A DNA stretch of 64,000 bases, taken from positions 372,001 to 436,000 of the forward strand of contig JARGXX010000079.1 in the NCBI GenBank assembly GCA_030374765.1, read 5' to 3'. How positions within the stretch are numbered: position 1 is the stretch's first letter; every line of letters starts with the position of its first letter. The translations under genes and the position numbers were made by a program. Source of the stretch: Agarophyton chilense. Its lineage: Eukaryota > Rhodophyta > Florideophyceae > Gracilariales > Gracilariaceae. The notes below the pieces were generated by a model. The model was not told the origin of the DNA. It ran no database searches and worked only from the letters and a program-made list of their open reading frames with translations. Positions 27,370-59,192 of the stretch are shown one piece after another.

Positions 27370-27374
27370 CTACT

Positions 27375-28291
27375 TGTAGAGCAACGCCCAGTTAGGGGAT
27401 ACTTGAAGATGCAACTCATAGAATGAGGATTGAACCCTCCGAGGGTTATGACTATGATCCCCTCTAAGGTGTGGTGAGGTGGCACTGTTTTATGGTTAGA
27501 GTTCGCCTATGAAGTGAAAATTCGGATGGCCCATGGTTGGATTGGCCCCGTGATACACGTGGCTTAATTTTGGCACCGATTTTCGGATATTTGTTAGAAC
27601 GTTGGACTTTTGGGCCCTGACAGTGGGATCTCCACGTGTATGGCCCTGAGCAGGTGTGCACTACTGTAGAGTTTAGTTAGTGGGCCCTACTTAGGGCGAC
27701 GAGATCTGACAGTCCGAAGCTCAGAGTAAAATGGTAACCAAAGTTGGTCTTAGATACCTTTAGAGGTTCTTCGTCGCCATCGTTTCGGACTTACAACCCG
27801 GAACGGGCTCTGGTTAGCAACGCCTGCGTAGGGACACGACTCCACTTGGAGAGTGCCCACGTTTGGGTTCCGTGCAACCACCCCCTTGGGACCGCTCAGA
27901 CGACCTGCGTGCACGATACCCCGTGGGGGTTCTGCTTACTTGTTGCGTGCTTTTTGTGTTTCCTTTCGAGGACAGGTTTTCGCCCCTGTATTGGGTTTCT
28001 TTTGTTGTTTCGCCCCTTTTCTGGTTCTCGGGTCCGGTGCCTGTTAGTGCCCGACCCTCGCCCCGTTTTTCCTCTTCGCCAGATTTTCCCCCATTCTTTG
28101 GGATACCCATACCCATTCCCGACCCAACGGTTTCTACCCCTCACCTCCGTCGGTACTACCGGAATCCCCCGTGGGAGTTACACCCCACACTACGGGTGGA
28201 ACGGAGGGCTCCGTCTCTAAGTCTGCCTCCCACAGGGAGCAAGGCTTCGAACACCTTGAGAGCACTTCCCGTCGCCGGGTTTTGCTCCACA
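27375..28291 (+). repeat. 5' LTR of the chromovirus
   Basis: 917 bp beginning TGTAGAGCAACG and ending GCTCCACA. It is GC-richer and more pyrimidine-rich in its second half, where short hairpins are frequent. The boundaries were fixed by comparison with the 3' LTR and by the target duplication. Frames inside it (27744-28220 and others) recur in the other LTR and are not genes. Confidence 0.95.
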
Positions 28292-28311: not shown

Positions 28312-28518
28312 TCCGTTCTCGGACTTTTGGGTTGGTTATCCACGTGTTGGAATATCTCTTGGAAGAGGAAGCAATTTCGTGAAGATTTGTTGTAGTGGAC
28401 CCCTTTAGAAAGGGTGGAATTGGTTTTTATTTTTGTTTTGTGTTACGTCATCCGTTCTCCGGGAATCTCGTGATCGAATTTCATCGCTACCCCGAATCGT
28501 CGGTGTCGTGTCTGCAGC

Positions 28519-30549
28519 ATGTCGCCGCCTACCCGTGGTTCCAGGACTGGATCAAACCGTCAAGCGGATTCAGTGCCCCCGGCCCCGCCTAGGCCGAGGA
28601 GCTCAATTCCCGAAGGTCGGTACGACTCCGGTATCGATCCGGACTCTCGGAGAGCACCCTCAGTGGTTTCAGGTCCTCGAGAGGTCGTGGCTGTGGGCCC
28701 AGCTCCAGTGGTGGAGACCCCCTCAGCAGCACCCCGAAGTCGGGCCGACCCTGAATTACAGCGCCTGGAGACTCGAATCGATATCGCCAACGCGGCTCAC
28801 GTCGAGCTCCTTCAGGAGGTTACTACCCTCCGCCTCAAGGTGGAGGACGCCCCGGTGCGGGGAGTCGCCGATGACCTTCGTGCCCTGAGGAGGGATGTGA
28901 ACTCCCTTTTGGAAAGCTTCGGTACCCCTGGGGTCTTTATCCAGGAGTACCGGAGTCTCGTGGAGGAACACCGCGTGCAAGCGGAACGCTTCCGAGCTCG
29001 GCTGGACACCCTCGAGGCCATTATCCGTATGGACGGAGACACAGAAGCCTCGAAGGATAAACCCGACGTTTCGGAAGACGAAGAACACCGCTCCGCTAAA
29101 CGGGACCGCCGCAAGTCCAAGAAGAGGGGTCACCTCCAAGAGGATTTATCGGATTCCGATCCCAATCGCTCGTCATCGAGTTCGTCCTCCGAATCTTCGG
29201 ATAGTGAAGATGGACGCCGGTCATCCCGGGCGACTCGGTCGAAGGCTACTTACACCTCTCAAGGGGCAATCCGTACCCGGAAGAAGGGTAGGAAACACCT
29301 TGGATTAAGGGATCTGAAGCCGACGAATCCTCTCTATCGGAAGCTGCTATCGTACCGCTATTACCGGTTGGATAACCCTTCGGGAGATCGAACATCCCAC
29401 GGAACGGGTAAGATCAAGGACTACATCAAAAGGCTGAGCATCACCCTACAGAAGAGGGAGTTCACAGGAACAGACCCAATTCTGGTGCTCGATTTCCTTG
29501 CGAGGTTCGTCCAGGAGGCTGACATCCTCGGTATGAGTGAAGCGCAAGCGTATCTGGCATTACCCTATTTCTTAAAGGGGATGGCTGAAGACCAGTTCAA
29601 CTCCGTCCGTGGATCATCCCGAGCCTCGGAAGGGGGAGTCACGTGCTGGCCCGAAGCGGTGCAGTACCTCTTGAGGTCATACGCTACTGGAAATGCGATT
29701 CCGGAAGCAATCCTTGAATTAAGGGATACGCGGAAGAAGCCGATGGAAACCGAAACGGTGTATTCAACTCGCTTGAATAAAGCGTTTCACCGATGCGGGA
29801 ATGTATTCCCCGCCTACGAGAGATGCACCATGTTTTTGGATGGTTTGGACCCCTCGATAAGGGCATTGGTTGCCCGACATCGGGAAGAGAAGCGCAAGCT
29901 GACCTTCTTGGAACTGGTTCAGTACGCCCAGGCTGAGGGGGATACTCTACGTGCCCGGCAGAACCGAAAGAGTCGGCCGACACGTGCACTTCTCGCCGAT
30001 GGAGGTAACTCGTCTTTGTCACTCGCAGGAGGCCCTGCCCCTGTGGGGGTCAATGATAACATTCACTTCATGGGAAGTAACCCCGAATCTATGGGTACGT
30101 CTGAGTTGCCGTCGACATCCGCTCAGACTACGGATGAAGACCCTGCGCTCTATACCCAAGGACGGAGGGTGCCAGCCGCATCGCTACCTTTTGCGAATAC
30201 CGCTGCTCGGTTCTCTCGCCTCGGATGGAGGGATACAGCACCACGTCGCGTGGATTCACGTCCACAACCAAACCCGGCAGAGCTGATTTTCTATTTGTGT
30301 TACCTCCGTGGTCACAAAGCACCAGACTGCACATTTCCCCTGCGGGAGGGTTCACGAATTATCGCTCAGTACGAGGCTCTGACCCCTGAGGAGAAAGCTC
30401 GAGTCCCGAGTAGGTCCTATGAGGAACAAAGGATACTCCGAGCTCACCTTGCTGACAGGGATACAGAACTTGTACCCGCGAACGGGGAACAACCGGTCCC
30501 CTTCGAGGCAGCTGCACCGAATTCGGTGGGGTCCGCTTCGAAAAACTAA
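28519..30549 (+). CDS. Gag polyprotein of the chromovirus
   Basis: The frame codes for 676 residues. An N-terminal Pro/Ser-rich part is followed by a coiled coil (about 85-180), an acidic-basic linker with a serine run (about 215-235), a capsid-like helical region (about 300-440, with FTGTDPILVLDFLARFVQEA) and, near the end, a knuckle-like segment CYLRGHKAPDC (about 30.30-30.33 kb). It would form the particle shell and bind the RNA. It lies 228 bp behind the LTR and is in a different frame from pol. Related Gag pieces occur at 9.8-12 kb, 59.2-61.4 kb and 63.1-64 kb. Confidence 0.9.
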   Translation: MSPPTRGSRTGSNRQADSVPPAPPRPRSSIPEGRYDSGIDPDSRRAPSVVSGPREVVAVGPAPVVETPSAAPRSRADPELQRLETRIDIANAAHVELLQEVTTLRLKVEDAPVRGVADDLRALRRDVNSLLESFGTPGVFIQEYRSLVEEHRVQAERFRARLDTLEAIIRMDGDTEASKDKPDVSEDEEHRSAKRDRRKSKKRGHLQEDLSDSDPNRSSSSSSSESSDSEDGRRSSRATRSKATYTSQGAIRTRKKGRKHLGLRDLKPTNPLYRKLLSYRYYRLDNPSGDRTSHGTGKIKDYIKRLSITLQKREFTGTDPILVLDFLARFVQEADILGMSEAQAYLALPYFLKGMAEDQFNSVRGSSRASEGGVTCWPEAVQYLLRSYATGNAIPEAILELRDTRKKPMETETVYSTRLNKAFHRCGNVFPAYERCTMFLDGLDPSIRALVARHREEKRKLTFLELVQYAQAEGDTLRARQNRKSRPTRALLADGGNSSLSLAGGPAPVGVNDNIHFMGSNPESMGTSELPSTSAQTTDEDPALYTQGRRVPAASLPFANTAARFSRLGWRDTAPRRVDSRPQPNPAELIFYLCYLRGHKAPDCTFPLREGSRIIAQYEALTPEEKARVPSRSYEEQRILRAHLADRDTELVPANGEQPVPFEAAAPNSVGSASKN

Positions 30550-30743
30550 ACTTGGGAGTCTCCCCTGCGGGAGGGGCGTCTTCTAAGCCGGAGTTGAAGA
30601 CGCCCGAGGCGCTCCAGCTTCGCTCCCCAGCTGTGACTATCCTTTCAAGGAGAACGGCTGACACCGACGTTAACTCGGGATAGTTTAGTGTCCTCCGTCG
30701 CCCGTGGATACGGTCCCGTAATCTCCGTATTCCGGATCGAGTT

Positions 30744-33700
30744 ATGGTAATGGCCAAGCAGAATTATAAAGTATTCGCCGACTTCGGCATGTCCAACCAG
30801 TTTATGGTTCGTCAAATATCTGTCCTGGATACAGGAGCCGCTCCTAACTTAATTCATGTTGAATTGTTACCCCCGCTGCTCCGGGTTGAAGTTCGTACCG
30901 GTCCACGTTTGGATATCGCCGATGCGAACAACAACCCGCTACGGACACTGGGTACAATTTCTCTCATGGTGAGGTTTGGCTCCTATCTCGTTCAGCTAGA
31001 GTTTATTTTATGCAAGTCACTTGCAGCACCAGTCATACTGGGTTGTGACTTTTGCGACCGCTTCGTGGAAGCCATCCGTCGTCGGAATAGAACTGTGGAA
31101 CTCGAAGACGAGCCTACGATCCCAATCGTTCGTAAACCCTTACAGGGAGCAGCGCGAACACGCGTTCCTCTCCCTGTCGCGCAGGAATCTGTGAAGAAGG
31201 ACCCGGTGTCTACACGGGTAAAGGTTTCGAAGTCAGTGTCTATCCCGCCAGAAACCCAGGTTTGGGTCACAGTTGTTACCAAGCAAATTGGTGTGCATGT
31301 GGTACAACGGAACCCGTCTCTGTATACGCGGCGTCAACTCGCCCTTGCGCATGGGGTTGTCTCCGTGGAACCGGATAAACCTTTCAAGGTTTTGGTAGCC
31401 AACTTTGAAAAGACAACGCAGCATTTGGTCAATCACCAGATCCTGGGTTCTGTTCTTCCACACCCGCATGCGGTCGTACCTACAAAGATCTCTATCGCAG
31501 AAGTCCTTGGTGTGGCGGACCCTAAGGAGGGGGAGGACACTGCCGAAATCGCGGAAGACGGTGAGCATACGACTGCAGCTCCACACGCTGAACACTTTAA
31601 ACCTCAGGAGGTTACGGCCCCTATCACAGGAGCAGACCAGACGGATCCTGTTCAGGAATTGGAGAAATGGGATCTCAACCATGTACCCGCATCTCATCGG
31701 GAGAAGCTGAGGCACATGCTTCGTGAATTTACCCCCATGTGGGATGGTTCCCTTGGAACTATTGGGATTACAGAACACCGCATCGACTTGTTACCGAACA
31801 CTCGGCGTATTGCCCAACACCCTTACAGGGCTGGACCGAAAGCTCGGGAAGAGGAGAAATCTCAGGTGGAGAAGATGCTTAAAGCGGGCGTAATTGAACC
31901 TGCCCAGTCCGCTTGGGCCTCACCAGTGGTGTTAGTTCCGAAACCGGATGGATCGTGGCGTTTCTGCATCGATTACAGACGCCTGAACGAGGTAACCATT
32001 AAAGATGTGTACCCGATCCCTCGGATGGACGAATACATCGACTCCCTTGGGAGCGCTACTGTTTTCTCTACCCTCGACGCCAATTCGGGCTACTGGCAAG
32101 TCCCTATTAGGGAGGAAGATCGAGACAAAACGGCTTTCGTGTGTCATCAAGGACTTTTCCGATTCCGGAGGTTGCCTTTTGGGTTGAAAAATGCCCCCGC
32201 AACGTTTCAACGGGCAATAGACATTCTGTTGGCTCCCTTCAAGTGGAGGACGTGTCTAGTGTATTTAGACGACATCATTGTCTTCTCCAACAACCTGGAT
32301 GACCACCTCGAACACGTCAGGGACGTAATGAAGATACTCCGCGACGCGGGAATCACCTTGAAACTCAAGAAGTGCGAGTTTTTCACCGATTCGGTTAAGT
32401 ATCTGGGTCATATCATCCGTCCCGGACAGCTTTCAATCGATGAAGTACGAGTGAAATCCTTAAAGGAAGCAAAACACCCGAAAACTCAAACGGAGTTGCG
32501 ATCCTTCTTAGGACTGTGTAACGTGTATCGCCGATTCGTCCCAAACTTTGCGGATATTGCCACCCCCCTCAACAGGCTCCTGGCGAAAGGACAACCAGTT
32601 GAACTGGAACCTTTTGGCGACGCGGAAGCGTCTGCCTTCACGGCACTGGTGAATGCCGTAACATCACCGCCAATCTTGGCTCTACCCAATCCTGGGCTTC
32701 CTTACGAAGTGGACACCGATGCTAGTGCAAACCAAGTAGGGTGTGCACTGTTCCAATCCTCTAAGGATGGTGAACGTCACCCTATTGGGTACTGGTCACG
32801 TTCCCTGAATGTCCATGAAAGGAACTACTCGGTCTCCGAGAAAGAATGTTTAGCCGTTGTGTGGGCCTTAGCTACACTTCGCCCGTATCTGATGGGTACT
32901 CGTTTCAAAGTCCATACGGACCACGCATGCTTGCGTTGGCTCCTGGAGATCTCCGAACCCTCGGGCCGCCTTATGCGCTGGCGTCTCCGACTGTCGGAAT
33001 TCGACTTTGAGATCCTGTACAAGAAAGGGAAGCTGAACACTCAGGCTGATGCACTATCCTGCTTGGGAACCACAGCGGAAACGGAACCCTACGAGGAAGA
33101 TGACATCCCATGTTTTATGGTATCGGACCTCGAGGGAGGAGCTCAACCGCTGACGGATGATGTTTGTGACGATATACTCGTCAACGAGAGTCTGTATTCG
33201 CCGACCGGCTCTTTTATACCTATCTCTCCAGAGGAGATGATACGCGAGCAACAGCTCGACCCATTCTGTACACGGATTCGGGCTCGCCTCAACGGAGGAT
33301 TTCAGTTACCTTTCGAGGACGACGATCAGGGTTACCTAATCAGGACCGTTGGACCTCGCCCGAGGATATTGGTGCCGCACACCCTACAACAGAGGGTATT
33401 ACACCTCACTCACTATGTGAAGGTTGGCGCCCACCCCGGGGGAAGAAAACTGTACCTCACGTTGAGAAGGGACTTTTACTGGCCGGCAATGGCCTTCGAT
33501 TGTTACGCCGTCAGACGGGCCTGCGCCAATTGCGCCAAGAATGACGTCAAACTTCGGAAGCACTCTAAGAAGTTGACGCTGTTCCCGGCACGGGCTCCAC
33601 TCGAATTCGTGGCCATAGACATCCTAGGGGAGTTTATCAGGACGTCCCGAGGTCATCGGTATCTGCTTGTCATTTCTGACAGATTCTCTAAGCTAACGAG

Positions 33701-35084
33701 AACTGTGCCGCTGAAGCGGATCACCGCCACTACCGTCGCGCAAGCGTTCGTGACCCATTGGGTGTTCGTATATGGACCGCCGGTGCATTTGTTATCCGAC
33801 AACGGAGGGCAATTCGCATCAAAGTTCTTTCAGGATGTATGTCGAATCCTTGATGAAAGGAATTTATTTGTTACTACGTATCACCCTCAGGGAAATGGCC
33901 AGGTGGAGAGGTTTAACCGCACGATACTCAACGCTTTGAGATCGTATGTTGCGGATCACCCCAAAAATTGGGACTTGTACACAGACGCTCTCACGTATGC
34001 ATACAACACTCAGGTACATCGGGTTACATCGTTATCCCCATTCGAACTGGTACTATCGAGGACACCGCCGCCGGTCGCCATCGAGGCTCAACCGACGCTG
34101 TCGACGTACCCGTCACCGGGATTGTACCGAGAAGCCTGGAAGGAGTGGCCTACGAAGATGGTGCCGATAGCCCGGAAAGCAATGGACAAAGCTCAACGCG
34201 CCTACAAGAAGGACTTTGACAATCGGGTTCGCAAACCTCTACCTCAGGTGGAGCCCGACGACTTCGTCTTCCTTCGAAAGGAATACTACAATCCTGAAAA
34301 GGAACGTAGGCACAAGCTTTCGCCAATTGTGGACGGACCCTATCGTGTGGTTTCTGTAGACCCGGACACGGTGGTATTGGATATCGCTAGCCGCCACGAA
34401 TGGATCTCCAGGGACCGCATCACACGAGCGCCCAACCCAAATGTGGAAGTGGTGTCGGCACCAACGCCCTCCACAGGGGATGATTCAACGGAAGTTAACC
34501 CGTCAGGCGGAGATTCGAACACCCGCCCCGTTATACTTCCGCACCCGGAACGTGGTTTAACCGACCTACCGGAAACTTTGGATACTCCCGAACCTGGGCC
34601 CGCTCCCTCAAGGGCCCAGTCAACGAACTCTTACAGAGTTACTCCCCCACCGGAGGTAATCAAGCCTCCTGGCTCTCCGCCTAAGGAGGGGGAGGAGGAC
34701 TTAGTTCCTTCGCAGGACGATGTTTCGGCGTCAGCCAGTCGCCCTAACATGGAATCTAGTTCTCACAGTGAGACGGCGAGCCCGACCGAGCCGGCGACAG
34801 AGAAGTCACAACCCCAGCGTATGGGTAGCGACATCACCGCCGACCCAGCCGAGCACGACGTCAGAAAAGATGACGAAACCCCGCCTAGGGAGAGTCGTGT
34901 GGAGAACTCCGCACCCGGAACGCCTACAGAGCCGACGAACACCCGCCGCCGCGGACGAGACACTGAGGTGTCGCACACTCAAACCCCGCTTTCTCGGGAA
35001 CGAGCTGTGTCAGCGGACCCGCACGGGGAAGATCTCGACGACGAGGTTGACCAAATTTGGCTCTCCGTTATGGAATGGGAATAG
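30744..35084 (+). CDS. Pol polyprotein of the chromovirus (protease, RT, RNase H, integrase)
   Basis: The 1446-residue frame has the domains in Ty3/gypsy order: aspartic protease (LDTGAAP, residues 28-34), reverse transcriptase (about 345-560, with VYLDDIIVFSNN and LPFGLKNAPATFQ), RNase H (YEVDTDAS at about 654-661, TDHACLRWLL near 725), integrase zinc-binding part (about 890-932, CANCAKN), catalytic core (AIDILG, LSDNGGQF, GNGQVERFN) and an integrase C-terminal part (RRHKLSPIVDGPYRV). A long Pro/Ser/Glu-rich tail (about 1240-1446) follows. The start is the ATG at 30744, 195 bp behind the gag stop. Confidence 0.95.
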   Translation: MVMAKQNYKVFADFGMSNQFMVRQISVLDTGAAPNLIHVELLPPLLRVEVRTGPRLDIADANNNPLRTLGTISLMVRFGSYLVQLEFILCKSLAAPVILGCDFCDRFVEAIRRRNRTVELEDEPTIPIVRKPLQGAARTRVPLPVAQESVKKDPVSTRVKVSKSVSIPPETQVWVTVVTKQIGVHVVQRNPSLYTRRQLALAHGVVSVEPDKPFKVLVANFEKTTQHLVNHQILGSVLPHPHAVVPTKISIAEVLGVADPKEGEDTAEIAEDGEHTTAAPHAEHFKPQEVTAPITGADQTDPVQELEKWDLNHVPASHREKLRHMLREFTPMWDGSLGTIGITEHRIDLLPNTRRIAQHPYRAGPKAREEEKSQVEKMLKAGVIEPAQSAWASPVVLVPKPDGSWRFCIDYRRLNEVTIKDVYPIPRMDEYIDSLGSATVFSTLDANSGYWQVPIREEDRDKTAFVCHQGLFRFRRLPFGLKNAPATFQRAIDILLAPFKWRTCLVYLDDIIVFSNNLDDHLEHVRDVMKILRDAGITLKLKKCEFFTDSVKYLGHIIRPGQLSIDEVRVKSLKEAKHPKTQTELRSFLGLCNVYRRFVPNFADIATPLNRLLAKGQPVELEPFGDAEASAFTALVNAVTSPPILALPNPGLPYEVDTDASANQVGCALFQSSKDGERHPIGYWSRSLNVHERNYSVSEKECLAVVWALATLRPYLMGTRFKVHTDHACLRWLLEISEPSGRLMRWRLRLSEFDFEILYKKGKLNTQADALSCLGTTAETEPYEEDDIPCFMVSDLEGGAQPLTDDVCDDILVNESLYSPTGSFIPISPEEMIREQQLDPFCTRIRARLNGGFQLPFEDDDQGYLIRTVGPRPRILVPHTLQQRVLHLTHYVKVGAHPGGRKLYLTLRRDFYWPAMAFDCYAVRRACANCAKNDVKLRKHSKKLTLFPARAPLEFVAIDILGEFIRTSRGHRYLLVISDRFSKLTRTVPLKRITATTVAQAFVTHWVFVYGPPVHLLSDNGGQFASKFFQDVCRILDERNLFVTTYHPQGNGQVERFNRTILNALRSYVADHPKNWDLYTDALTYAYNTQVHRVTSLSPFELVLSRTPPPVAIEAQPTLSTYPSPGLYREAWKEWPTKMVPIARKAMDKAQRAYKKDFDNRVRKPLPQVEPDDFVFLRKEYYNPEKERRHKLSPIVDGPYRVVSVDPDTVVLDIASRHEWISRDRITRAPNPNVEVVSAPTPSTGDDSTEVNPSGGDSNTRPVILPHPERGLTDLPETLDTPEPGPAPSRAQSTNSYRVTPPPEVIKPPGSPPKEGEEDLVPSQDDVSASASRPNMESSSHSETASPTEPATEKSQPQRMGSDITADPAEHDVRKDDETPPRESRVENSAPGTPTEPTNTRRRGRDTEVSHTQTPLSRERAVSADPHGEDLDDEVDQIWLSVMEWE

Positions 35085-35192
35085 GAACTCCTATGGAGAC
35101 ACTGGAACCCTCAGAAATGGGAAAGAAATGAGTGAGACCCGTCGGGGACAGCTCAGGAGAGTGCTAGCGCGTGTCGAAAGCGCCACCTCACA

Positions 35193-35225
35193 TCCGCTTG
35201 CGGAGTGGCAACCGGCGCCCGCGCA
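35193..35225 (+). repeat. 33-bp direct repeat, copy 1 (in the pol-chromodomain spacer)
   Basis: Its core GCGGAGTGGCAACCGGCGCC recurs at 36409-36441; 31 of 33 positions agree. This copy lies just behind the pol stop. Confidence 0.75.
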
Positions 35226-35634: not shown

Positions 35635-35874
35635 ATGGAAGAGAAGCCCGAACAGGGAAAAGTGTACCCGCAGGAATTCGTTATCGATCGCATCGTGCGT
35701 CACATCTACACCCCCGAAGGAGAAGTTCGCTACCAAGTCCGATGGTACGGATTCTCGCCTGATGAGGATACATTGGAACCCATTGAGCACCTTCCGATGT
35801 CTAAGGTTTTATCCTATCACCGACGCGCTCGGGTAACCTTGCCTCCAAATCTGGATCGTGCCCAAGTCGGGTAA
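35635..35874 (+). CDS. Chromodomain protein in its own ORF
   Basis: The frame of 79 residues from ATG 35635 is almost entirely a chromodomain: FVIDRIVRHI, then VRYQVRWYGFSPDEDTLEP and a closing helix with KVLSYHRR. In chromoviruses this module normally forms the C-terminus of integrase and steers insertion to chromatin marks. Here it lies 550 bp behind the pol stop. Whether it is made separately or reached through splicing, as some elements do, cannot be judged. A counterpart is found in the decayed element at about 55.6-56.15 kb. Confidence 0.8.
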   Translation: MEEKPEQGKVYPQEFVIDRIVRHIYTPEGEVRYQVRWYGFSPDEDTLEPIEHLPMSKVLSYHRRARVTLPPNLDRAQVG

Positions 35875-36029: not shown

Positions 36030-36210
36030 TTATCGGGACAGTTTATGATGAAAAAGGAAAAGAAGACCCACGAAGTGGAGAAGAAGATTAAGAAGAAGAT
36101 TGGACCCTAGGAAGGGAAGAAGATGAAGAAGATCCTAAGAAGGAATGAAGAAGATGAAGTAGAAGTTAAGATCCTAGGAAGGAAGAAGAAAAGAAGTTAT
36201 GCAATTATCA
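36030..36210 (+). repeat. Purine-rich GAA-type tract between the chromodomain ORF and the antisense ORF
   Basis: Nearly all bases are A or G, with imperfect GAAGAA and AAGAAGAT units. A comparable tract, in the matching place and element orientation, is seen in the decayed element at 55.49-55.63 kb. It separates the convergent sense and antisense frames. Confidence 0.6.
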
Positions 36211-36263: not shown

Positions 36264-38120
36264 CTACGGAAAGCCCGAGGATGGACCCGCCCCACCGTTG
36301 GGATTCTGACCCTGATGGTACGCTGAGGCGAAAGCCAACATCTGGCTCACATCCGTCATACCCGGGGGAATCGGAATGCCCGCGTTCACGAGGCCTTGTC
36401 GCACACTATCCGCCTGCGGAGTGGCAACCGGCGCCTGCGCAAGGGTGTCCACACCCCACCCGGGGGGAGCAGATGAACCGCCACCGGATGCATTCGCCGC
36501 CGCAGCTGAGGTCGTTCCCACTGGTTGGAAGGGTGCAGATGGCTCCACAGGGAGTACTCCACTAGGAGCTGGCATGTCGTTATCCAACGCTGGATCGTCC
36601 AGGTCTACTGGAGGCTCGTACTCGTAATCGTCGGTATAAATGAACCCCGTCGGGTGTCTCACCGGCATCGGTCGAGGCGAGTCAATCAGCGCCCGTGCTT
36701 GCGCCGCGCTAATGCGAACCCCTTCGAAGGGATTGTAATAGACCCAGTTACCGGAGCCCGGATCGTACCGGCCAGGAGACTTGTCTCGCGCGGATCCTTC
36801 CCCTGCGGGCTGATTTTCCACTGGAACTCGATCCCATTGGGTGTTGTCGATCACGTCCAAGATTGGATACAGGTCCTGCACGCTGCTGGCCGAACCCAAC
36901 GCTGGGACAAGGTTGATCTGACGCATGATGGTCCGTAGCATCGGAGGAATATACCAGATACGGAAATGGTCATGAGCATCCCAGAGGAGGTGCGCCGCTA
37001 CGCGGGCTGCCCACTCGGCTGCAACGAGGGCCCAGTATCCCGAGTTCGGGTCGTGCATCAAACGAGACCTGATATAGTAGATGCATGGGGGCAGTTCAGC
37101 AAAGCACCCTCGGGGGACCTCGACCTTACTCCACCAAGCTGGAAGGGGCACGAATCGCCCAACCTTCGCCGTGTTACGGATACGCTCCAGTTCCACGTGA
37201 GGATACGGGACAAGGAACCCGAAACGGGAGCGCGAGCGGCGCTCGAAGCGCACGCGTCGATCGAACCCATACTGGGTAAACTGCCGTTGAAGGTACCTGA
37301 ATTCAGCCCGAAGGATGGGACGACTCCATTGGAGCATATCTTCTCGGAGAGGAAAACCCGGTCCGCGGAACTCGGCTTCGGGAAAGGCTGCCAGGTTATC
37401 CCCGTAGGAGACCTCATCGTACGTGCGGTAATAGGCGACATCGAACCCGTACTCCGGGGGATCCAGATGGTCAAAGCGTGACCTCTCCAATCGCTGGTAG
37501 GCCAGAGCCGCCATCGCTGCGCGCGCCTTGTCCAGGGACTCCCCGCGACCGCGGTATAGATACTGAGGCTCTATGGCTACCCGCGCCCTCCAATCGGGAG
37601 AACGTACAACCTCGACAGGTAAGCCACCCGGCAATAAGCCGTCCTCCACGTAGGAGTCGATGAGCTCATCGTCGCGAACCGCTGTCGGGTGGAACCACGG
37701 AGCGCGGGAATATATCACCGGATCGGTAAGGGAACTCCACCTTCGAAAGGATTCGTTTGAGATCCTACCTCTGGAGTTCGCTACCAAGGGCATCGCATGA
37801 GCGGAGTTCCACGCCACCGCGTTAATGTCCAAATCCTCCTGAGGATGTCGGTTGCTCGCCGAGGCGGAAGGTTCGGTACCTGACGGAGCCGCATCCAAAC
37901 CGGAGAAATATCCACCCTGCTGGGGAGCTTCGTTGTCCGCCGGCGCGGAGGCCGATGGCCCTGAGAGTGGGTTGAGGACGTATGGGTTCATTCCCTTGAG
38001 AGGGTTGGTTGAGACTGCTGTTGCGAAAAGATGCTTATCGCCGAAAGTCGGAGGAGTAGAAGAAAGTTGTACCGATGTGCCGGTTTTGTGGCGATCCTCA
38101 GAAGTGGTGAAGGACCCCAT
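36264..38120 (-). CDS. Antisense accessory ORF of the chromovirus, unknown protein
   Basis: This minus-strand frame of 618 codons from ATG 38120 fills the space between the purine tract and the 3' LTR, opposite to gag and pol. The N-terminal 110 residues are Ser/Pro/Ala-rich, the core (about 120-440) is rich in Arg, Tyr, Trp and Phe and looks folded (FLVPYPHVELERIR, LLWDAHDHFRIWYIPP, DNTQWDRVP), and the C-terminal 130 residues are Pro/Ala/Gly-rich and probably disordered. No signal peptide, zinc finger or known domain was recognised. A relative of the core lies in the decayed element at 53.6-55.4 kb, again antisense. TATATATA precedes the ATG (38132-38139). In plant gypsy elements antisense ORFs are known at this place, but relatedness is not shown. 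Confidence 0.7.
   Translation of the reverse strand: MGSFTTSEDRHKTGTSVQLSSTPPTFGDKHLFATAVSTNPLKGMNPYVLNPLSGPSASAPADNEAPQQGGYFSGLDAAPSGTEPSASASNRHPQEDLDINAVAWNSAHAMPLVANSRGRISNESFRRWSSLTDPVIYSRAPWFHPTAVRDDELIDSYVEDGLLPGGLPVEVVRSPDWRARVAIEPQYLYRGRGESLDKARAAMAALAYQRLERSRFDHLDPPEYGFDVAYYRTYDEVSYGDNLAAFPEAEFRGPGFPLREDMLQWSRPILRAEFRYLQRQFTQYGFDRRVRFERRSRSRFGFLVPYPHVELERIRNTAKVGRFVPLPAWWSKVEVPRGCFAELPPCIYYIRSRLMHDPNSGYWALVAAEWAARVAAHLLWDAHDHFRIWYIPPMLRTIMRQINLVPALGSASSVQDLYPILDVIDNTQWDRVPVENQPAGEGSARDKSPGRYDPGSGNWVYYNPFEGVRISAAQARALIDSPRPMPVRHPTGFIYTDDYEYEPPVDLDDPALDNDMPAPSGVLPVEPSAPFQPVGTTSAAAANASGGGSSAPPGWGVDTLAQAPVATPQADSVRQGLVNAGIPIPPGMTDVSQMLAFASAYHQGQNPNGGAGPSSGFP
36409..36441 (+). repeat. 33-bp direct repeat, copy 2 (inside the antisense ORF)
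   Basis: It matches copy 1 at 35193-35225 in 31 of 33 bases. This copy lies within the region coding for the disordered C-terminus of the antisense protein. Confidence 0.75.
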
Positions 38121-38131
38121 TGGGAGAGAAG

Positions 38132-38139
38132 TATATATA
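38132..38139 (-). promoter_or_regulatory. TATATATA upstream of the antisense ORF
   Basis: The motif lies 12-19 bp upstream of the antisense ATG and about 62 bp inside the 3' LTR boundary. It may be a TATA box or simply AT-rich leader. As a TATA box it would put the transcript start close to or behind this ATG. Confidence 0.25.
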
Positions 38140-38188: not shown

Positions 38189-38201
38189 AAGGAGGGGGAG
38201 A
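38189..38201 (+). other. Polypurine tract
   Basis: AAGGAGGGGGAGA abuts the 3' LTR start (38202). This is the usual site for priming plus-strand DNA synthesis. Confidence 0.85.
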
Positions 38202-39117
38202 TGTAGAGCAACGCCCAGTTAGGGGATACTTGAAGATGCAACTCATAGACTGAGGATTGAACCCTCCGAGGGTTATGATTATGATCCCCTCTAACGTGTG
38301 CTGAGGTGGCACTGTTTTCTGGTTATATTTCGCCTATAAGGGAAAATTCGGATGGCCCATGGTTGGATTGGCCCCGTGATACACGTGGCTTAATTTTGGC
38401 ATCGATTTTCGGATATTTGTTAGAACGTTGGACTTTTGGGCCCTGACAGTGGGATCTCCACGTGTATGGCCCTGAGCAGGTGTGCACTACTGTAGAGTTT
38501 AGTTAGTGGGCCCTACATAGGGAGACGAGATCTGACAGTCCGAAGCTCAGAGTAAAATGGTAACCAAAGTTGGTCTTCGATACCTTTAGAGGTTCTTCGT
38601 CGCCATCGTTTCGGACTTACAACCCGGAACGGGCTCTGGTTAGCAACGCCTGCGTAGGGACACGACTCCACTTGGAGAGTGCCCACGTTTGGGTTCCGTG
38701 CAACCACCCCCTTGGGACCGCTCAGACGACCTGCGTGCACGATACCCCGTGGGGGTTCTGCTTACTTGTTGCGTGCTTTTTGTGTTTCCTTTCGAGGACA
38801 GGTTTTCGCCCCTGTATTGGGTTTCTTTTGTTGTTTCGCCCCTTTTCTGGTTCTCGGGTCCGGTGCCTGTTAGTGCCCGACCCTCGCCCCGTTTTTCCTC
38901 TTCGCCGGATTTTCCCCCATTCTTTGGGATACCCATACCCATTCCCGACCCAACGGTTCCTACCCCTCACCTCCGTCGGTACTGCCGGAATCCCCCGTGG
39001 GAGTTACACTCCACACTACGGGTGGAACGGAGGGCTCTGTCTCTGAGTCTCCCTCCCCCAGGGAGCAAGGCTTCGAACACCTTGAGAGCACTTCCCGTCG
39101 CCGGGTTTTGCTCCACA
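38202..39117 (+). repeat. 3' LTR of the chromovirus
   Basis: 916 bp, nearly identical to the 5' LTR, with about 20 differences, mostly within the first 250 bp and the last 150 bp. It is followed directly by the target duplication CTACT. Confidence 0.95.
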
Positions 39118-39122
39118 CTACT

Positions 39123-46512: not shown

Positions 46513-49281
46513 TTAGTGGCGCAATTTCATTCCAGTGCTGTGGGATGATTTACGGAGTATTCTCCTCGTCAACGCCTTCTCACACAGACGGTTGAAAAGT
46601 TGGCGTTTGTCAATTCCCATGGCTGCTTGCATCTTGACTAATACGCTTGTTGGAGCGAATGAACAGTATAAACACGTCTCTAGCAAAACTGGCTCACCAT
46701 CGGGATCAATGCGAATATCGTAGATACTGTAATCCCGGCATCCCAGCGATTTGTGTGCAGTTGTCACCATTTGATACAGTTTGTTGTGAAGAGCAGGATC
46801 GATAGATGCTGGAAGAGTAACGCCACCGGGAGCGCCACCTTTCAATTTCGTGATAGTTCCTGTTTTCGTCGTATCTAGCTTGTGCGCCGTGGTCCTAACC
46901 GGATCGGAGGGTGTAATAAAGTATTCAATAACCGGGAGCATTTCCAAACTTTCGTCACCTTCTTCGACAACAGCTACTCGCACCTCTCGTCCTGGTGCAA
47001 TGAATTCTTCGCACATCACATCTTCGCAAAACTGAAACGCATGATGTAGGGCGTCATCAATTCTTTCAGGTTCGTACACAACTGTTATCCCTTGTGAATT
47101 GTCTTCCTCACTTGGCTTTATAACAAACGGCAGGGTCAAAGTTGGTTTCTCTCCCTTCTTGAGGACTTCGAAGTCTGGTACCCGTACCCCGGCGGCACGT
47201 GCACATGCATTCGTCCGCGCTTTATTCGTGGAAAGTGCAAGTGCATCGGCAGTACAGCCGAGTAATGGTATCTTCAAGATATCAAAAACGGAACGCACTG
47301 CAGTCATCCCTTCATAATCGTACATGTGAGGAAGGACAATGTCAACACCAAGTTTCTCTATCTTCATCAATGCTTGGCCAGGAGAAATCCACTTCCCGTT
47401 GTTTAAGATGTAGGATTCACTTACGAAGGGCTCCACACTCCAACCACGGGATGGGCTTACCTGAACGACAACATGTTCAAATCGTCCATCCGTACCAACA
47501 TTTTCTATGCAATCGTATCCGTATCTCGTTGAAAGGGTTTCATAAAATTCATTCACCGACGATCCCATAACATGAAGTATGCGCAATCTTCGAAGGGGTA
47601 TTTCATTTCTGACGTTCCAAGGTTCTCCAATCTTCACAGTACGGTAAGAAATGTCGGACGAAGAGTTGGTGAGTTGTGACAATTTCGACCCAAGCAGAAT
47701 CCGAGTTTCTCCTTGGATGTGTTGGGCTAGGAATTTATCAGTAATGTTTCCATTTCGTACAACGTCAACATCACACACATGCCCAAGGTCTGGCGGCGCC
47801 GCGATATACTCATCACGAAGCAAGATCATTTTCACACCCATTCCTTCACACTTCTTGAAGACCGTATTGAAATCGGGAACGGTAACATCGAGGAACAGAG
47901 TGTCTATGTGCCGTATTGACTGCAGAGCGAAGTCTATTTGGGTTCTGGCCAAATTCTCACGGAAAACTTCGATGCCCCGACTTGCAGAGTTCCCATCTAG
48001 AATGATTTTGCAAATGTTGACATCTATCTTACGCCAAGATTTCTTGGTCAATCCTTTCGTAGCAATGGCATTCAGGGGCCACACCACTTCCGCACCGAAG
48101 AAAGGAAGGGGATCGTAGAAACTGCAGTAACCTTCACATCGAGAGGTCCATGGCCAGCAATTACGATGGAACAAGAATCCCACATTGCTGTACACAGTTC
48201 GTTTCGTAACGTCCACACCGAAGAAAGATTCAGCCCATAAGGGTGTGTTTGAGACAGTTTCTAGGATTGACGAAGCTCTAGGGTTGCATTCTATGACGAA
48301 ACTTCGCCCCGTGTTCTCGACTTGAATGAAGTCAAACGCGAATTGTCCGGTGAGATTTAGTCTTTTGATCATATTCCGAAGTGTTTTATCCAAGTGTTTG
48401 TCGACAGGTGCAGGATCGAAATGCAAGAGATCTGGCTCTGCATGGTAGCAACCGGTGAAGGTCACACAACCATTTATACAAACGTACCACACCGAGTATT
48501 CTTTTCCGACAATAAAACGTTGCCATTGCCAGGGATCTGCTAGAGAGGGCTGAATTAAGTTTGGTACTACGTCCTCGGGTCCGATATGCACTATTTCTTC
48601 TCGACGGTTCACGGAGGATTGTACACGCTTCAATATGATGCCATGCTCGTATGCTTTAGATAGTTGGTTTATGCCATCTGTCGATGTAAGCAAGCCGCTT
48701 TCCGGTACAGAAACTTCATTCTTTTCACATAGATTTGAGAACTGAGCTCTGTCATCGAGTCTCAGAGCCACTTCAAGATCTGGACAAACCCATTGAATGT
48801 GAGGTAGCTCACTTTCTAATTGGTGCTTTGCTAGTGCAAGGAAAAGCACCTCGTTGATAGTGCTAACCGGGAGAACCATATCAACGTTGTTCTCGACCAG
48901 GACATGTCGAAAGCTTTGGATCCACGGTTGGATCTTGTCTGTGTCCAATGGAGGTAGTACAAGAAATTTGTCACAGGCGAGACTTAAGGCAGATGCACTG
49001 ACAAAGTGATAGTCTGTTACGATAACAGTTGCACCGATTTCTTTCAAAGCTCGCACAGTGTGTAGTGTCTTGGCTTGACGGCCCGTGGTCACAAGCACGG
49101 TCTTGCCCCTTGCGACACCACCGTAGCGAGGACTCCCCAATTCTTTTCCAGACCGAAATCGTTCGAGGCGTTTTAAGAATGTCTTGAAGAAGACGAGGAT
49201 AGTCCACAGCAAGTGTACAATCCAACTTATCAATGAAGAGGAGAGAGTGAGCACAGTCTGATTTGAGTGTATGATCACCAT
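46513..49281 (-). CDS. mysC-mysD: MysC-MysD fusion, mycosporine-like amino acid biosynthesis
   Basis: The 922-residue protein joins two ATP-grasp ligases. Residues 1-430 match cyanobacterial MysC: an N-terminal membrane segment (18-36), then GKTVLVTTGR (59-68), FIVGKEYS (256-263), TGQFAFDFIQ (311-320), FVIECNPRA (328-336) and WRKIDVNICKI (416-426). MysC adds glycine to 4-deoxygadusol to give mycosporine-glycine. Residues 565-922 match the D-Ala-D-Ala-ligase-like MysD: RILHVMGSSV (567-576), FVIKPSEEDNSQGITVV (719-735), FIAPGREVR (760-768), LGCRDYSIYDIRID (846-859) and LETCLYCSFAP (867-877). MysD adds a second amino acid to give imino-MAAs such as shinorine or porphyra-334. A linker of about 130 residues (431-564) is unassigned. 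Intronless. No mysA/mysB gene (deoxygadusol synthesis) is visible in the window. Light or UV control is likely from known biology but not visible here. Confidence 0.93.
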   Translation of the reverse strand: MVIIHSNQTVLTLSSSLISWIVHLLWTILVFFKTFLKRLERFRSGKELGSPRYGGVARGKTVLVTTGRQAKTLHTVRALKEIGATVIVTDYHFVSASALSLACDKFLVLPPLDTDKIQPWIQSFRHVLVENNVDMVLPVSTINEVLFLALAKHQLESELPHIQWVCPDLEVALRLDDRAQFSNLCEKNEVSVPESGLLTSTDGINQLSKAYEHGIILKRVQSSVNRREEIVHIGPEDVVPNLIQPSLADPWQWQRFIVGKEYSVWYVCINGCVTFTGCYHAEPDLLHFDPAPVDKHLDKTLRNMIKRLNLTGQFAFDFIQVENTGRSFVIECNPRASSILETVSNTPLWAESFFGVDVTKRTVYSNVGFLFHRNCWPWTSRCEGYCSFYDPLPFFGAEVVWPLNAIATKGLTKKSWRKIDVNICKIILDGNSASRGIEVFRENLARTQIDFALQSIRHIDTLFLDVTVPDFNTVFKKCEGMGVKMILLRDEYIAAPPDLGHVCDVDVVRNGNITDKFLAQHIQGETRILLGSKLSQLTNSSSDISYRTVKIGEPWNVRNEIPLRRLRILHVMGSSVNEFYETLSTRYGYDCIENVGTDGRFEHVVVQVSPSRGWSVEPFVSESYILNNGKWISPGQALMKIEKLGVDIVLPHMYDYEGMTAVRSVFDILKIPLLGCTADALALSTNKARTNACARAAGVRVPDFEVLKKGEKPTLTLPFVIKPSEEDNSQGITVVYEPERIDDALHHAFQFCEDVMCEEFIAPGREVRVAVVEEGDESLEMLPVIEYFITPSDPVRTTAHKLDTTKTGTITKLKGGAPGGVTLPASIDPALHNKLYQMVTTAHKSLGCRDYSIYDIRIDPDGEPVLLETCLYCSFAPTSVLVKMQAAMGIDKRQLFNRLCEKALTRRILRKSSHSTGMKLRH

Positions 49282-53508: not shown

Positions 53509-53639
53509 CTATGCTTCTCACTTTTGAGCTCCAACTGCGACTTCTCGATAAAAACGACATCGGTGTTTTCTACATATTAAATACCGCACACCCCCCAAAT
53601 TAAGCACAAACCTTGGGGGACGCAAGAAGTACTTATACG

Positions 53640-55430
53640 AATTCATCCCGGCTCTGCGGAAATTCATCTTCACCACGAAATCCTCGCCATGTAACCCACT
53701 CTTTTTGATCTCGACAGAGCTCTGTGTCTTACCGCTCTACAACTCGATCCTCAAAGATGATTCCGAACGCTGGGTCTAACCCATTCCACGCCTCCTCTGA
53801 GGATGTGCCTTCAGAGGCTCCGTTCAAAGCTGCAGGTTATGCGACAGAGGCTGCTGCGTCACTCGGTCCATACCGTTCTTTCCACACACCGTACTGTGGA
53901 TTCCGGTCAGTACCGTTCCCACAGACATCTGTAGCTTTGATTCCGAACGCGGTTTATGGTTCCACTCGTTGTGTGATCCGAGCTCCATATTGTCGTGCTT
54001 AGCGGATCTACCTGCATACTGTAGATTCCTCAGGACATGATTCTCTCGATAACGATGAAATATTTTTTAAAGCGACCTTGTTGAGCACTATTTGATCCAG
54101 TAGCTTTACGCGATGATGCATTGATGAAACAGTATGTAAACGGTGGTTATTTTTTCTACAGCATTCCGGTGCACACAATATGTAGCGAGGACTAGGAGAG
54201 CCATATTGCTTTTCCCGGCAATGCGATTGCGCGATATTCAATGAAAACACCGTCAGAAGCCAGAACGCGGTTCGTAAAGCTGATATATTAGCGTCTTCAA
54301 CGATCCATTAGTACGTTCATTCTTCCGCTGGATTGCTTACCAGGTATCTGGGAAGCCCGTACTAGCAGTGAAGGCTACTAGTACATCCTGACACTAATCG
54401 AAGTCGATGTAGATGGTTGGTTCGGCATACGAGGCGTGTGCGACGCAGATCTGTTTCTAAAAACCTCTTTTTGTGGGGATCTCCGCTTCCTTCGTAGTGG
54501 TGATATTCTATATTGCAATTATTTCCTTTGGGAACGCCGTACTCGACCACGATTAAACTTTTTGGTGCCATATCAAATGATTGAGATTGACGGCATCAGG
54601 CAGAACGTGTGCTTTGGGCGCTACACCACCATAAAAGGACATTGGGCAGCGATTTAAAAGTCCCGCAGTTGTCCTGTGGAACTCCCCCTACGATATCCTA
54701 CATTACATTTGCATTGGTGAATGACCCTTGTTCGAGATATTAGACCGTGGTTTATACCGAACCTTTCATCAAGATGGCCGTCTCCCTCCTTTGGGAAGCT
54801 TATGATACCATTAAAGTTTGTTACATGTCACCCACAGCACGAAGGTATGCGACGAAACTTAACATTTCCCTTTTCATGCGATCCCGTGCGATACATGCCG
54901 ATTCCCTTCATCTTGTGAATTTTCTCGACAGCATCGATTGGTCTGAAGTGCCAGCTGAACAATCGGACACCACGACCATTTCCATGGGCGAACACCGAGT
55001 GCTGGAGATTTCTTTTGCTACAACCCTTCGATGCGCCACTTTATTACCTCCGAGAAAACTCTCTTTGCTCGGTGAACCCGCCTGATACGTCATCGAACCA
55101 GCTCACTGGATATGCGTGCGATGCCACTCCATCTGAGAGCGGAGAAGAACCCTACGAGTAAACTACGGGAGCGGAGGCTGAACTCGGATACAAGGACAAC
55201 CCCAAACTAGGAATTGTGGCGGGTTCCGTTGATTGTTCCGCAGCGGCGGGAGTACCTCAAGATTATTTCTATGGGTTTTCCTAAACAACCGAGTGCCGTG
55301 CTGGGGGAATATCCTAGTTTGGATCCGCTGAGGAAGTTTCTTTTAGACGCGAGTTGGCCAGTGGACCGATTAGATGGTGATCTCGAACAGCTTCTTGAGA
55401 ATTTACATGACCGCACGTCTCTTTGATGAT
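53640..55430 (+). pseudogene. Broken relative of the antisense ORF
   Basis: Plus-strand pieces resemble the core of the antisense protein coded at 38120-36264: FLVPYQMIEIDGIRQ at about 54559 (compare FLVPYPHVELERIRN) and LLWEAYDTIKVCYMSP at about 54786 (compare LLWDAHDHFRIWYIPP), followed by a WSEVP/WDRVP match. Similarity is at the protein level, in the same order, and the strand is again opposite to the element's pol. The place, between LTR and chromodomain, is also the same. It is a fossil with several breaks. Confidence 0.65.
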
Positions 55431-55630: not shown

Positions 55631-56148
55631 CGCCTTCGAGTTTTTACTACAATCGTAGCCCACAATTGGATATGGGGTGTGGCCATGAGTCCAATTAACG
55701 AGGAGTTGATCTCTTTAGCGAGTGGTTCTTGTACGCGACTATGGTATCGCACGAGCTGCGTACGAGGAATATGAGGTATATTTTCCAATGAATGTGCTTC
55801 CGAAAGACAACCATACCAACGGATTCGATACATAAGTTTTCTGATGTCCTCATGCTCGCCATTTTCACAAACGCGATTCAGAGCATACTCCTGGAAATTT
55901 CCCAGTGTTTCCGCTGTTGGTGCAAAACTCCTGCTAACCGGTTTGAAACGCCATAAAATTGACCAAAGCGTCTTTGTGATAGCAGTCTGAGGGTTCTGAA
56001 GCTTTCGGTCGTCGAGTAATTGTCGTTCTGCCCCCACCGGCCTTATAGTCACTCTTTGACAACTCTTCTCAGCAAATGAGCTGTCCTGTTTTCTAGATTC
56101 CATAGTAGTATACATTTTTCTACTCTTTGAATTATTTCGTGGGTACAT
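55585..56148 (-). pseudogene. Chromodomain piece of the second chromovirus copy
   Basis: The minus strand encodes YRIRWYGCLSEAHSLENI followed by a helix with QLVRYHSR, which matches YQVRWYGFSPDEDTLEPI and KVLSYHRR of the chromodomain ORF at 35635. It lies downstream of the integrase tail, not fused to it, as in the whole element. Confidence 0.65.
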
Positions 56149-56619: not shown

Positions 56620-58745
56620 TTACACCTTGGGTTTTACGTGTGTGCGCGTGCCCAGGGGAATATCCAGACACTTCGGAGGCTGCCTATGATTGGCGTACAA
56701 AACCTCTGGCGGTGAGAGATCAAGAGATTTCTCCTCCGCTCGAGCCACTGGTGGCGGTTCACTCTCTGAAGAGTCACGTAGTGTATTGCCTTGCTGGTCC
56801 GCCTCATTTGCTTTACCAGTTGCACTAGATAAATGATCCTGTTCTTGCATATCAGGCGCGACCACAACACGATCGCGTGATACATGTTCTACTTTCTCAC
56901 TAGTATCGATGAGTACGGTGTCACCATTGAAGTTAAACGTCTTGTATCGGCCTGCCGCTTTCGGCAATAACTTCTGACGAGACTTATCCTGCTTTTCAGG
57001 TCTCTCGACACGCACGAAAACGTGACCTTCTACTCGGATTACCGAATTTCTTTTTTGCATTCTATATTCATATTTTCTCTTTTAGCGAGCCTGCGTTTGA
57101 GAGAACTTCTTAGTGGCTTCTTTCGCTCTGATCTTCAAGGCATTCATCCATTTTAGATGGTACTTAACAGTCGGTGGCGTGTCCAATCCTGTCTCGTCGT
57201 CGAGCACAACATATAAAACAGGAGAGCTACGCAAGAGCACGAGTCGATGGAGGCCGTCTTCGTAGAGGTATGCTCTTGCTTATTGTACACGTAGCACAGA
57301 GTATCCGTAAACAAGTCCCATGTTTTCGGGTCTTCTGCTATGTATTTTCGTAAGGCTGCTATCAGCATGCTTTTGAAACGCCTCCCTTTACCGTTTCATT
57401 GCGGATGGTAGCTCGTGAAAAAACTCGTTTCGAAAGCCTGTAATACGGTAAACATTCTGAAAGAACTTCGCAACGAATTAGTTTCCATTATCGGAGAACA
57501 GGACTTCTGGTGATCCATATAAAATAACCCAGTGTTTGATTATCACCCGTCCGATTACGGTGGGGGTGATTCGCTTAAGCCGTAGAGTCTGCACTGACTT
57601 TGAGAAGCGGTCTTTGATTACGAACAAGTAGGGATAGCCTCGCCATGAGCGAATCAATTCTCCAAGAATGTCACTACTGATGTAATGTAGAGCCGCTTTT
57701 GCTGTGAAAAACTTCAGTTGTTTCCGCTTCTTGGAAAGTTTCACTAGATTCTTAGCACATGTCCTACACAACTTCAGTGTAGCGTGGCAGTCCATTGTCA
57801 AGTTTGGCCAAGAAAAATCTCTTTTTAGAGTCAAAATGACCTTCGTTTCTCCTGGATGACCAAACAGTTTGCTGTAGTGCGCCTGATGGAATATTCGAAT
57901 CTTCAAGAAAGATGGAACCACGATTTGATCATGCTTTGAGACATATCCTAGAAGTGTTCCTCATAAATCGCGTGAAAAAGAAAGATCCTTTCCTTCGTCG
58001 AGACGAGAGCGTATCGACGCACAAAACTTATCGGTGTGCTGCTCATTGAGCAGCTCGGTGCACGAGATTCGCTTTAGTAGATCTGAAGGTATAGTTTCTG
58101 CTAAGGGAAGGAACTGTTCTGCATCCTAATAATCACTAATTTTTTCTTTTTCCTCTTATCTAAAACAGTTTGAATGGATGTTTATAAAAAGTCAAGGTAA
58201 CTCTTCATCGTTTTCTTCTTGGGTGTCCCTAAATGTTTTAAGTCGCGATTGCGCCTCGGCTTAGACAATGGCCAGTTTCTTCTTGTCATTCACTTCGAAA
58301 TGTAATTCATAAAGGTGCAATCGCCATCGGTGGAAAAAACCGTATGGTCTGTGCTGGACTGTAACCATCGTACAGATGAATGATCCAAGTTGACGGAAAA
58401 TCTTTCTCTTTGTCGATAGGGTCTCAAAGTGGTAAGAGCCCTAAAAACAGCAAGGCATTCCATTTTTGAGACTGAATACTTACTTCCGGTTGTGTTCAGC
58501 GATTTTGACCAGTAACCAATGCGTTTGCGTGTACCAATAGGGGGGGTTTGGAAAAGGGCGGACCCTACTTGGTATTTGATGGAGTCGGGCTTCACTGAGT
58601 ACGGAAGATTGGGGACGGGTAGCGCCAGGACTGGGACTGGGACTGTAATAATGCTGAACTTAAGCTTTTCAAACGACTCACTCGAAATCTTTCAGCTGTA
58701 ATGGGTTTCCCTTCCAAAACATTGGGTTGAGCGGTGCCGCTGTAT
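56620..58745 (-). pseudogene. Broken pol region of the second chromovirus copy
   Basis: Minus-strand pieces resemble the integrase C-terminus (VEGHVFVRVERPEKQDK, 57.0 kb), the integrase core and zinc-binding part (57478-57921, with HPGETKVILTLKRDFSWP and LFSDNG), and RNase H (58290-58595, with IGYWSKSLN). Similarity to the open pol frame at 30744-35084 is clear. It is broken in several places. Confidence 0.75.
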
Positions 58746-58750
58746 GTAAA

Positions 58751-59192
58751 TGTGAAGGAGAGATGATAATGGTTGAGCCCTGTAAACCGCCGGGCCCTGA
58801 AGGATCTTGCAGATCACACGTGTATAGTTCGACCTCAGAAGGACTCAAGTAGATTATTAAATTAATTATTGTAATATATTAACACTACAGTGCCAGGGAG
58901 ATCTCAGCGCCTCGCCAGTTCTATTTACTTGGCTCGAGTGACGCTTCCCACTTAGAGTACGGTAGGCACCGTTAGGATACTAAATAACCCCCTTTGGTAT
59001 ATTAGTTCCACCCTTTGGTCTTCAAGCCATCGTTTCCGTAGCTCCAACCTGTAGTACTACGCATTAAACGCCAGCCCATTGCACCAAGTACTCTGGGAGT
59101 GCCACCGTCAAGGATTCGAACCTTAGGACCCGCTCTACCACGCTACCCCCGGTTGAGACCCGTGCGCTGACTTAACCCGTCATTGCGTTTCA
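58751..59192 (+). repeat. 5' LTR of the element at 58751
   Basis: 442 bp, TGTGAAGGAG...GCGTTTCA. The boundaries follow from the solo LTR at 6620-7060, which has a target duplication. Confidence 0.8.
59094..59150 (-). other. tRNA-like module inside the LTR
   Basis: The minus strand has TAGCGTGGTAGAGCG (A-box-like), GGTTCGAATCC (B-box-like), and ends GGGGGT and ACTCCC that can pair like an acceptor stem. The anticodon arm is missing. It is the counterpart of 6661-6717 and is antisense to the LTR. Confidence 0.5.

Follow-up and report, generated by a model that had tools for sequence, protein, structure and literature searches.

An antisense frame in a complete red-algal element

The 64,000-nucleotide stretch of the red alga Agarophyton chilense analysed here (contig JARGXX010000079.1, positions 372,001 to 436,000; hereafter the window) contains a complete Ty3/Gypsy element of 11.7 kb, element A, in which both long terminal repeats (LTRs) and the target duplication are present, and which carries a long open reading frame (ORF) on the strand opposite to gag-pol. 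An earlier note on this DNA had placed a 618-codon minus-strand frame before the 3' LTR of a whole element, and our analysis agrees on both points, locating the frame at 36264-38120 and finding the element complete. The two LTRs are identical at 896 of 916 aligned bases. The antisense frame lies with its 3' end facing a chromodomain ORF and its 5' end abutting the 3' LTR, in the following arrangement:

27375..28291, plus strand: 5' LTR of element A; target duplication CTACT at 27370-27374
28474..30549, plus strand: gag-like ORF of element A, 691 codons, without Pfam match
30684..35084, plus strand: pol ORF of element A, with reverse transcriptase, RNase H and integrase matches
35635..35874, plus strand: separate chromodomain ORF of element A (Pfam Chromo, E 1.6e-8)
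36264..38120, minus strand: antisense gene of 618 codons counted from the first ATG, or of 575 codons from the probable true start at 37991
38132..38139, minus strand: TATA-like TATATATA, putative promoter site
38190..38201, plus strand: polypurine sequence adjoining the 3' LTR, presumed to serve as the polypurine tract
38202..39117, plus strand: 3' LTR of element A; target duplication CTACT at 39118-39122

Measured from stop to stop the antisense frame spans 640 codons, and its true start is probably the internal methionine M44 at 37991, which would leave 575 codons. This assignment draws on three observations: the related proteins P0002, P0006 and P0007 all begin at the internal Met corresponding to 37991 (gene-caller starts being weak evidence taken alone), TATA-like sites lie upstream of this Met both in element A and in a second family of elements, B, and the preceding open stretch is not unusual, its open codons being no more than expected by chance (P 0.21, 0.37 and 0.31 in families A, B and C). 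A coding N-terminus deduced from the frame being open was rejected, since this openness is not better than chance. The first ATG follows the TATA-like TATATATA at a distance of 19 nt, the internal Met at 148 nt.

Two repeats were observed around the gene. A 34-nt stretch from its 3' part (36408-36441) recurs with 94% identity at 35192-35225, between pol and the chromodomain ORF, and purine-rich near-repeats of the AAGAAGA type occupy 36067-36182, between the chromodomain ORF and the antisense stop.

The earlier note had also recognised a broken relative of the antisense protein, in matching place and orientation, in a diverged element at 52.9-58.8 kb (element 2), and this relationship proved solid. 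In tblastn the antisense protein matched element 2 at E 4e-23, in pieces 28% and 31% identical and on the strand opposite to the pol remnant, while a family B protein as query extended the relative across 53604-55423 on the plus strand (E 3e-143). The similarity was kept under a shuffled control, with a Smith-Waterman score of 173 against 32.8 +/- 4.6 (maximum 56) for 1000 residue shuffles of the element-2 piece. The parts of element 2 are:

53604..55423, plus strand: disrupted relative (family B type) of the antisense gene, part of degraded element 2
55690..55893, minus strand: chromodomain remnant of element 2 (E 3e-8)
56698..58758, minus strand: pol remnant of element 2

Families of the gene and selection on its product

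The earlier note had spoken of two lineages carrying the gene. Its presence in more than one is confirmed, but the count was too low, as the 79.8 Mb genome that we searched holds at least three families (A, B and C). At least 71 copies were scored for family A, 44 of the 71 without an internal stop, and at least 68 for family C, where 25 of the 68 have none and one of those 25 covers 610 of 652 residues; the frame is therefore kept open in further copies. For family B at least 150 core matches were scored, namely element 2 and 149 others at 57-65% identity to it. All these counts are lower bounds because only the best candidates were scored. The genome also contains an older B-like group near P0010, and P0013 and P0012 as genome queries gave matches at 36-41%, family C among them.

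The sole match of the first protein search was P0002 (48% over 91% of P0001), and a profile search of the protein collection with alignment A1 returned P0002 only. The family B core as query yielded nine further relatives, six labelled Agarophyton chilense, two from an lgn-tagged source and one from ENA. Since P0010, one of those labelled A. chilense, has a 100% match of 406 residues in the genome, interrupted by one stop codon, the relatives labelled A. chilense are probably the genome's own copies and were therefore not counted as independent. The red-algal nature of the host is also borne out by 15 phycobilisome-family matches, 14 of which lie on a single contig. Of the eleven proteins that can be aligned in the antisense frame, six are probably encoded by this same genome.

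Across at least three diverged families the gene is kept in a fixed place, tail to tail with the integrase/chromodomain frame and with its head against the 3' LTR. It sits between pol and the 3' LTR on the opposite strand in family A, and likewise in B and C. In family A the chromodomain was found on the opposite strand past the antisense stop in 38 of 38 loci (32 distinct sequences), and 79 or 81 nt separate the end of the LTR from the first ATG. Of the 30 loci L039-L068, 28 have the chromodomain in the corresponding position, element 2 being one of them (L069 and L070 were too short to judge), and in both family C loci that were read it again lies on the opposite strand past the antisense stop. 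It forms a separate ORF about 550 nt past the pol stop in family A and an integrase-fused open frame in family C, where an 897-codon frame antisense to the gene runs from integrase into chromodomain (L072/L073). All loci were picked by the presence of the antisense gene, so families or copies without it would escape notice.

A strong signal of selection comes from comparing these families codon by codon. Over the 362 codons of the core, A and B are identical at 0.539, 0.608 and 0.285 of codon positions 1, 2 and 3, respectively, with 37.8% of residues identical; silent positions are thus close to randomised. Over all aligned codons the antisense frame scores +1.38 per residue (BLOSUM62) with zero stops, whereas the remaining five frames contain 16 to 41 stops and score between -0.53 and +0.46 per residue. 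The codon positions rank in the same way for A and C (0.564/0.638/0.349; residues 42.8%) and for B and C (0.521/0.572/0.310; residues 38.0%).

A similar signal is preserved at a shorter evolutionary distance, in element 2. Compared with 31 family B copies it has 242 private differences after the internal Met, distributed 69/62/111 over the three codon positions, so that 111 of 242 fall at position 3 where 33.5% are expected (P 4e-5). By effect, 93 are synonymous, 141 nonsynonymous and 8 create stops, against an expectation of 26.6% synonymous (P 4e-5). When only the region outside the search query is counted, position 3 accounts for 65 of 154 differences (P 0.015), and 52 are synonymous (P 0.03). 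Among the B copies, singletons follow the neutral expectation, with 234 synonymous changes in 888 (expected fraction 0.254). Dead copies thus drift, whereas the lineages that gave rise to them were constrained.

Within family A, singletons after codon 43 in the 32 distinct copies comprise 152 synonymous, 277 nonsynonymous and 13 stop changes (neutral fractions 0.282/0.675/0.043), and shared variants 35, 48 and 2 (0.298/0.660/0.042). Being weak, and applied to copies chosen for their similarity to the antisense protein, this test was not used as proof; the same bias applies to the divergence of the family A core, 0.0126 per site as against 0.0287-0.038 in the flanks. Codon usage was rejected as coding evidence and is uninformative, because another frame correlates better with pol and gag (0.52 and 0.63) than the antisense frame does (0.40 and 0.55).

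The codon-position pattern and frame control for A and B, the same order in the other two pairs and the silent excess in element 2 uphold the proposal of the earlier note that the antisense product is under selection. The non-neutral substitution that it expected on the antisense strand is found as constraint between families, but not among recent copies within a family, whose changes are near neutral. We are confident that the antisense ORF is a selected protein gene.

Some further features of the window were recorded. The minus-strand segment 62103-62871 matches the LTR sequence of family B at 83-98% and contains, at 62574-62749, an exact tandem duplication of 88 nt, and gag-like and pol-like fragments related to element A lie on the plus strand at 60187-62068 and 63849-63986. 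An unusual host gene occupies 46513-49296 on the minus strand, a 927-codon ORF with a match to the D-ala-D-ala ligase C-terminal domain (E 4e-21) and weaker ATP-grasp matches. A tRNA scan found none.

The protein and its possible role

The conserved core of the protein corresponds approximately to residues 131-500 of P0001, and the ends are of low complexity. Twenty-five columns are invariant in alignment A3, among them E236, P268, F274, E293, R294, R297, G301, P305 and Y306, as well as E310, R322, E334, W363, L379, G457, P486 and G492. Arginine exceeds lysine in all 11 members, and the pI is 4.9-6.4 in ten of them and 8.7 in P0013. The highest 19-residue hydropathy, measured in six of the 11, is 0.93-1.43 in five; the usual membrane threshold is 1.6.

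The earlier note had found nothing recognisable in this protein, and the library searches gave the same answer, with no Pfam or NCBIfam match above the curated cut-off and best E values of 0.18 in PHROGs and 1.2 in the PDB (Asx, in the low-complexity tail). Matches below cut-off or near chance were E3_binding (best E 0.029, five of 11 members), DUF3905 (0.13), ARM_TBCD (0.28) and NF047385 (0.19). Of 109 pattern matches in viral contigs, none was confirmed. Duplication of gag or pol as the origin of the gene was rejected, there being no profile match to either. What looks new here is the protein family, which was not found in the searched libraries and is conserved across deeply diverged element families.

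We propose, with belief and doubt in about equal measure, that the frame is a genuine, protein-coding accessory gene belonging to an old red-algal group of chromodomain Ty3/Gypsy elements, and that its product plays a trans role in the nucleus. Transcription would start at a promoter on the inner margin of the 3' LTR and proceed in the direction of pol, and the antisense transcript would be translated from a start near 37991. The soluble product would then work in trans inside the nucleus, where, associated with nucleic acid or chromatin, it would help or regulate the element; transcription control, nuclear entry and choice of target are candidate tasks. A role of this kind has been put forward for the Grande and Retand antisense genes of plants, and HBZ of deltaretroviruses has one (all discussed below). 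The product would be a soluble accessory protein, probably a nuclear one. A nuclear regulatory or helper role is put forward more tentatively, a little below even confidence, by analogy with the Grande product and HBZ and in view of searches that gave no capsid-like or enzymatic matches.

Several observations weigh against this proposal. In the library searches neither fold nor domain backs a nuclear role, the one hint being an Ish1-like C-terminal match in one of the 11 proteins (E 0.092, below cut-off). Ten of the 11 proteins are acidic, and the hydropathy of P0013 is borderline at 1.64. The TATA-like site is polymorphic in family A, many other copies having TATACATA. The B loci L056 and L065 show no chromodomain, and a profile search detected no antisense relative beyond the chromodomain of a third element, element 3, within the window. 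The silent excess within family A is weak and comes from a biased test, and the family C pair L071/L072 gives no signal (48 differences, 11/20/17 by codon position, 14 synonymous).

Other functions for a protein product can be envisaged. Rather than aiding a nuclear cycle, it might counter host silencing or limit the element's own copy number, as an early product of the antisense promoter acting on the small-RNA or methylation machinery or on sibling elements; the presumed separate antisense transcription unit and the abundance of copies (no fewer than 71 matches for A, 149 for B and 68 for C) would suit such a function, domain evidence points neither way, and we regard it as unlikely. Somewhat less likely still is a structural or particle protein, such as an extra capsid, matrix or spread protein expressed apart from gag-pol. 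Its length, conserved core and low-complexity ends would fit, but there is no profile match to the element's own gag and no useful Pfam or PHROG match, and five of the six measured members have no clear membrane segment. That the elements merely carry a captured host gene without use seems to us highly improbable: host-gene capture by LTR elements is known, and an orphan protein in an accessory position is in keeping with it, but the constraint across families and the consistent place and strand argue otherwise, and no copy outside an element was seen among the fetched loci.

The codon-level results largely exclude the readings in which no protein is needed. An antisense RNA could pair with genomic RNA and feed or block silencing, a role discussed for plant antisense ORFs in the accessible parts of PMC7264820, but it does not predict that positions 1 and 2 are conserved and position 3 randomised in a stop-free frame; as the whole explanation it is slightly more improbable even than an idle captured gene, and RNA may act in addition to the protein. 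There remains the view that the frame is open by chance or is the shadow of a gene on the gag-pol strand, which carries a 180-codon frame at 36939-37481 and, in the A/B comparison, one frame at +0.46 per residue. That frame, however, has 41 stops in the two aligned sequences and the antisense frame none, the alignment score lies 30 standard deviations above the shuffles, and eleven proteins align in the antisense frame, leaving this view with a negligible probability.

Antisense genes of other LTR elements and descent

An accessory protein gene on the antisense strand of an LTR element has precedents. The earlier note stated that antisense ORFs at this site are known in some plant Gypsy elements and, as HBZ, in deltaretroviruses, and this agrees with the literature (PMC7264820, PMC11963269; published systems are compared here from the accessible parts of the papers cited). 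The plant antisense additional ORFs between pol and the 3' LTR are termed aORF-3R and include Grande gene23, RIRE2 and Retand ORF4 (PMC7264820, PMC11963269). The Grande antisense gene has its own promoter and a product reported as nuclear (PMC7264820), and HBZ is reported as nuclear as well (PMC11963269). The red-algal gene resembles the aORF-3R class in place, orientation and conservation within families, and differs in that its hosts are red algae, the comparison being by description and not by sequence. The antisense genes of Retand have a TRP28 domain and belong to a non-chromovirus lineage (PMC11963269), whereas Transposase_28 (PF04195) is not among the Pfam matches of the red-algal proteins at E up to 10 and the red-algal elements carry a chromodomain. 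The gene is thus not of the Retand kind; the broader class, that of antisense ORFs between pol and the 3' LTR, has known members in plants and fungi. The brtn gene of the fungal element Boty (PMC8365987, PMC7264820) is, by its description, likewise an antisense gene of an LTR element outside plants, in another host kingdom.

HBZ shares with the red-algal gene that it is antisense and read from the 3' end of an LTR element (PMC11963269), but is a known nuclear regulator where the red-algal protein is a proposed one. The Pfam matches of the red-algal proteins, taken to E 10, do not include bZIP. HBZ is also much shorter than the red-algal antisense protein. ORF3 of bdelloid rotifers is similarly an extra ORF acquired by LTR elements, but has recognisable domains (DEDDy, GDSL) and is not described as antisense in the accessible parts of PMC5408684. 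Unlike an env-like extra ORF, the red-algal gene lies on the strand opposite gag-pol. Our literature search found no report of such a gene in red algae, most subscription papers being outside its coverage.

In a tree of the antisense proteins, A groups with P0002 (100/99) and these with C (87/91), while B groups with P0008, P0010 and P0011 (100/99), and P0012 and P0013 sit on long branches. Integrase similarity is 64.5% between A and C and 34% between A and element 2, the latter lowered by decay, so that both tree and integrase place A with C. Element 3, at 3629-11195 on the minus strand, has relatives of gag and pol, and its chromodomain match lies at 3766-3629. Its integrase is 42% similar to A and 46% to C, and since it shows no antisense relative, one has to suppose that the gene was lost from this element or that its 3' end is cut off. 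Apart from element 3, the simplest reading of the A, B and C pattern is co-inheritance from a common ancestor.

A wider scenario, which we offer with considerable doubt, is that an antisense regulatory gene of a new protein superfamily was acquired by red-algal chromodomain elements before their main families split, and that together with the plant and fungal genes and HBZ it may represent a general strategy of LTR elements, in which an antisense trans-regulator evolves independently beside the 3' LTR. For annotation the gene has a practical consequence, as it could be taken for one of the host's own; six of its relatives bear the label 'unnamed protein product' under Agarophyton chilense. Antisense ORFs of plant elements have long been noted without a settled role, according to the accessible parts of PMC7264820. 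Because the red-algal orphan family spans at least three element families of a single genome, has relatives elsewhere and bears a codon-level sign of selection, it lets the question of whether the protein or the RNA matters be tested directly.
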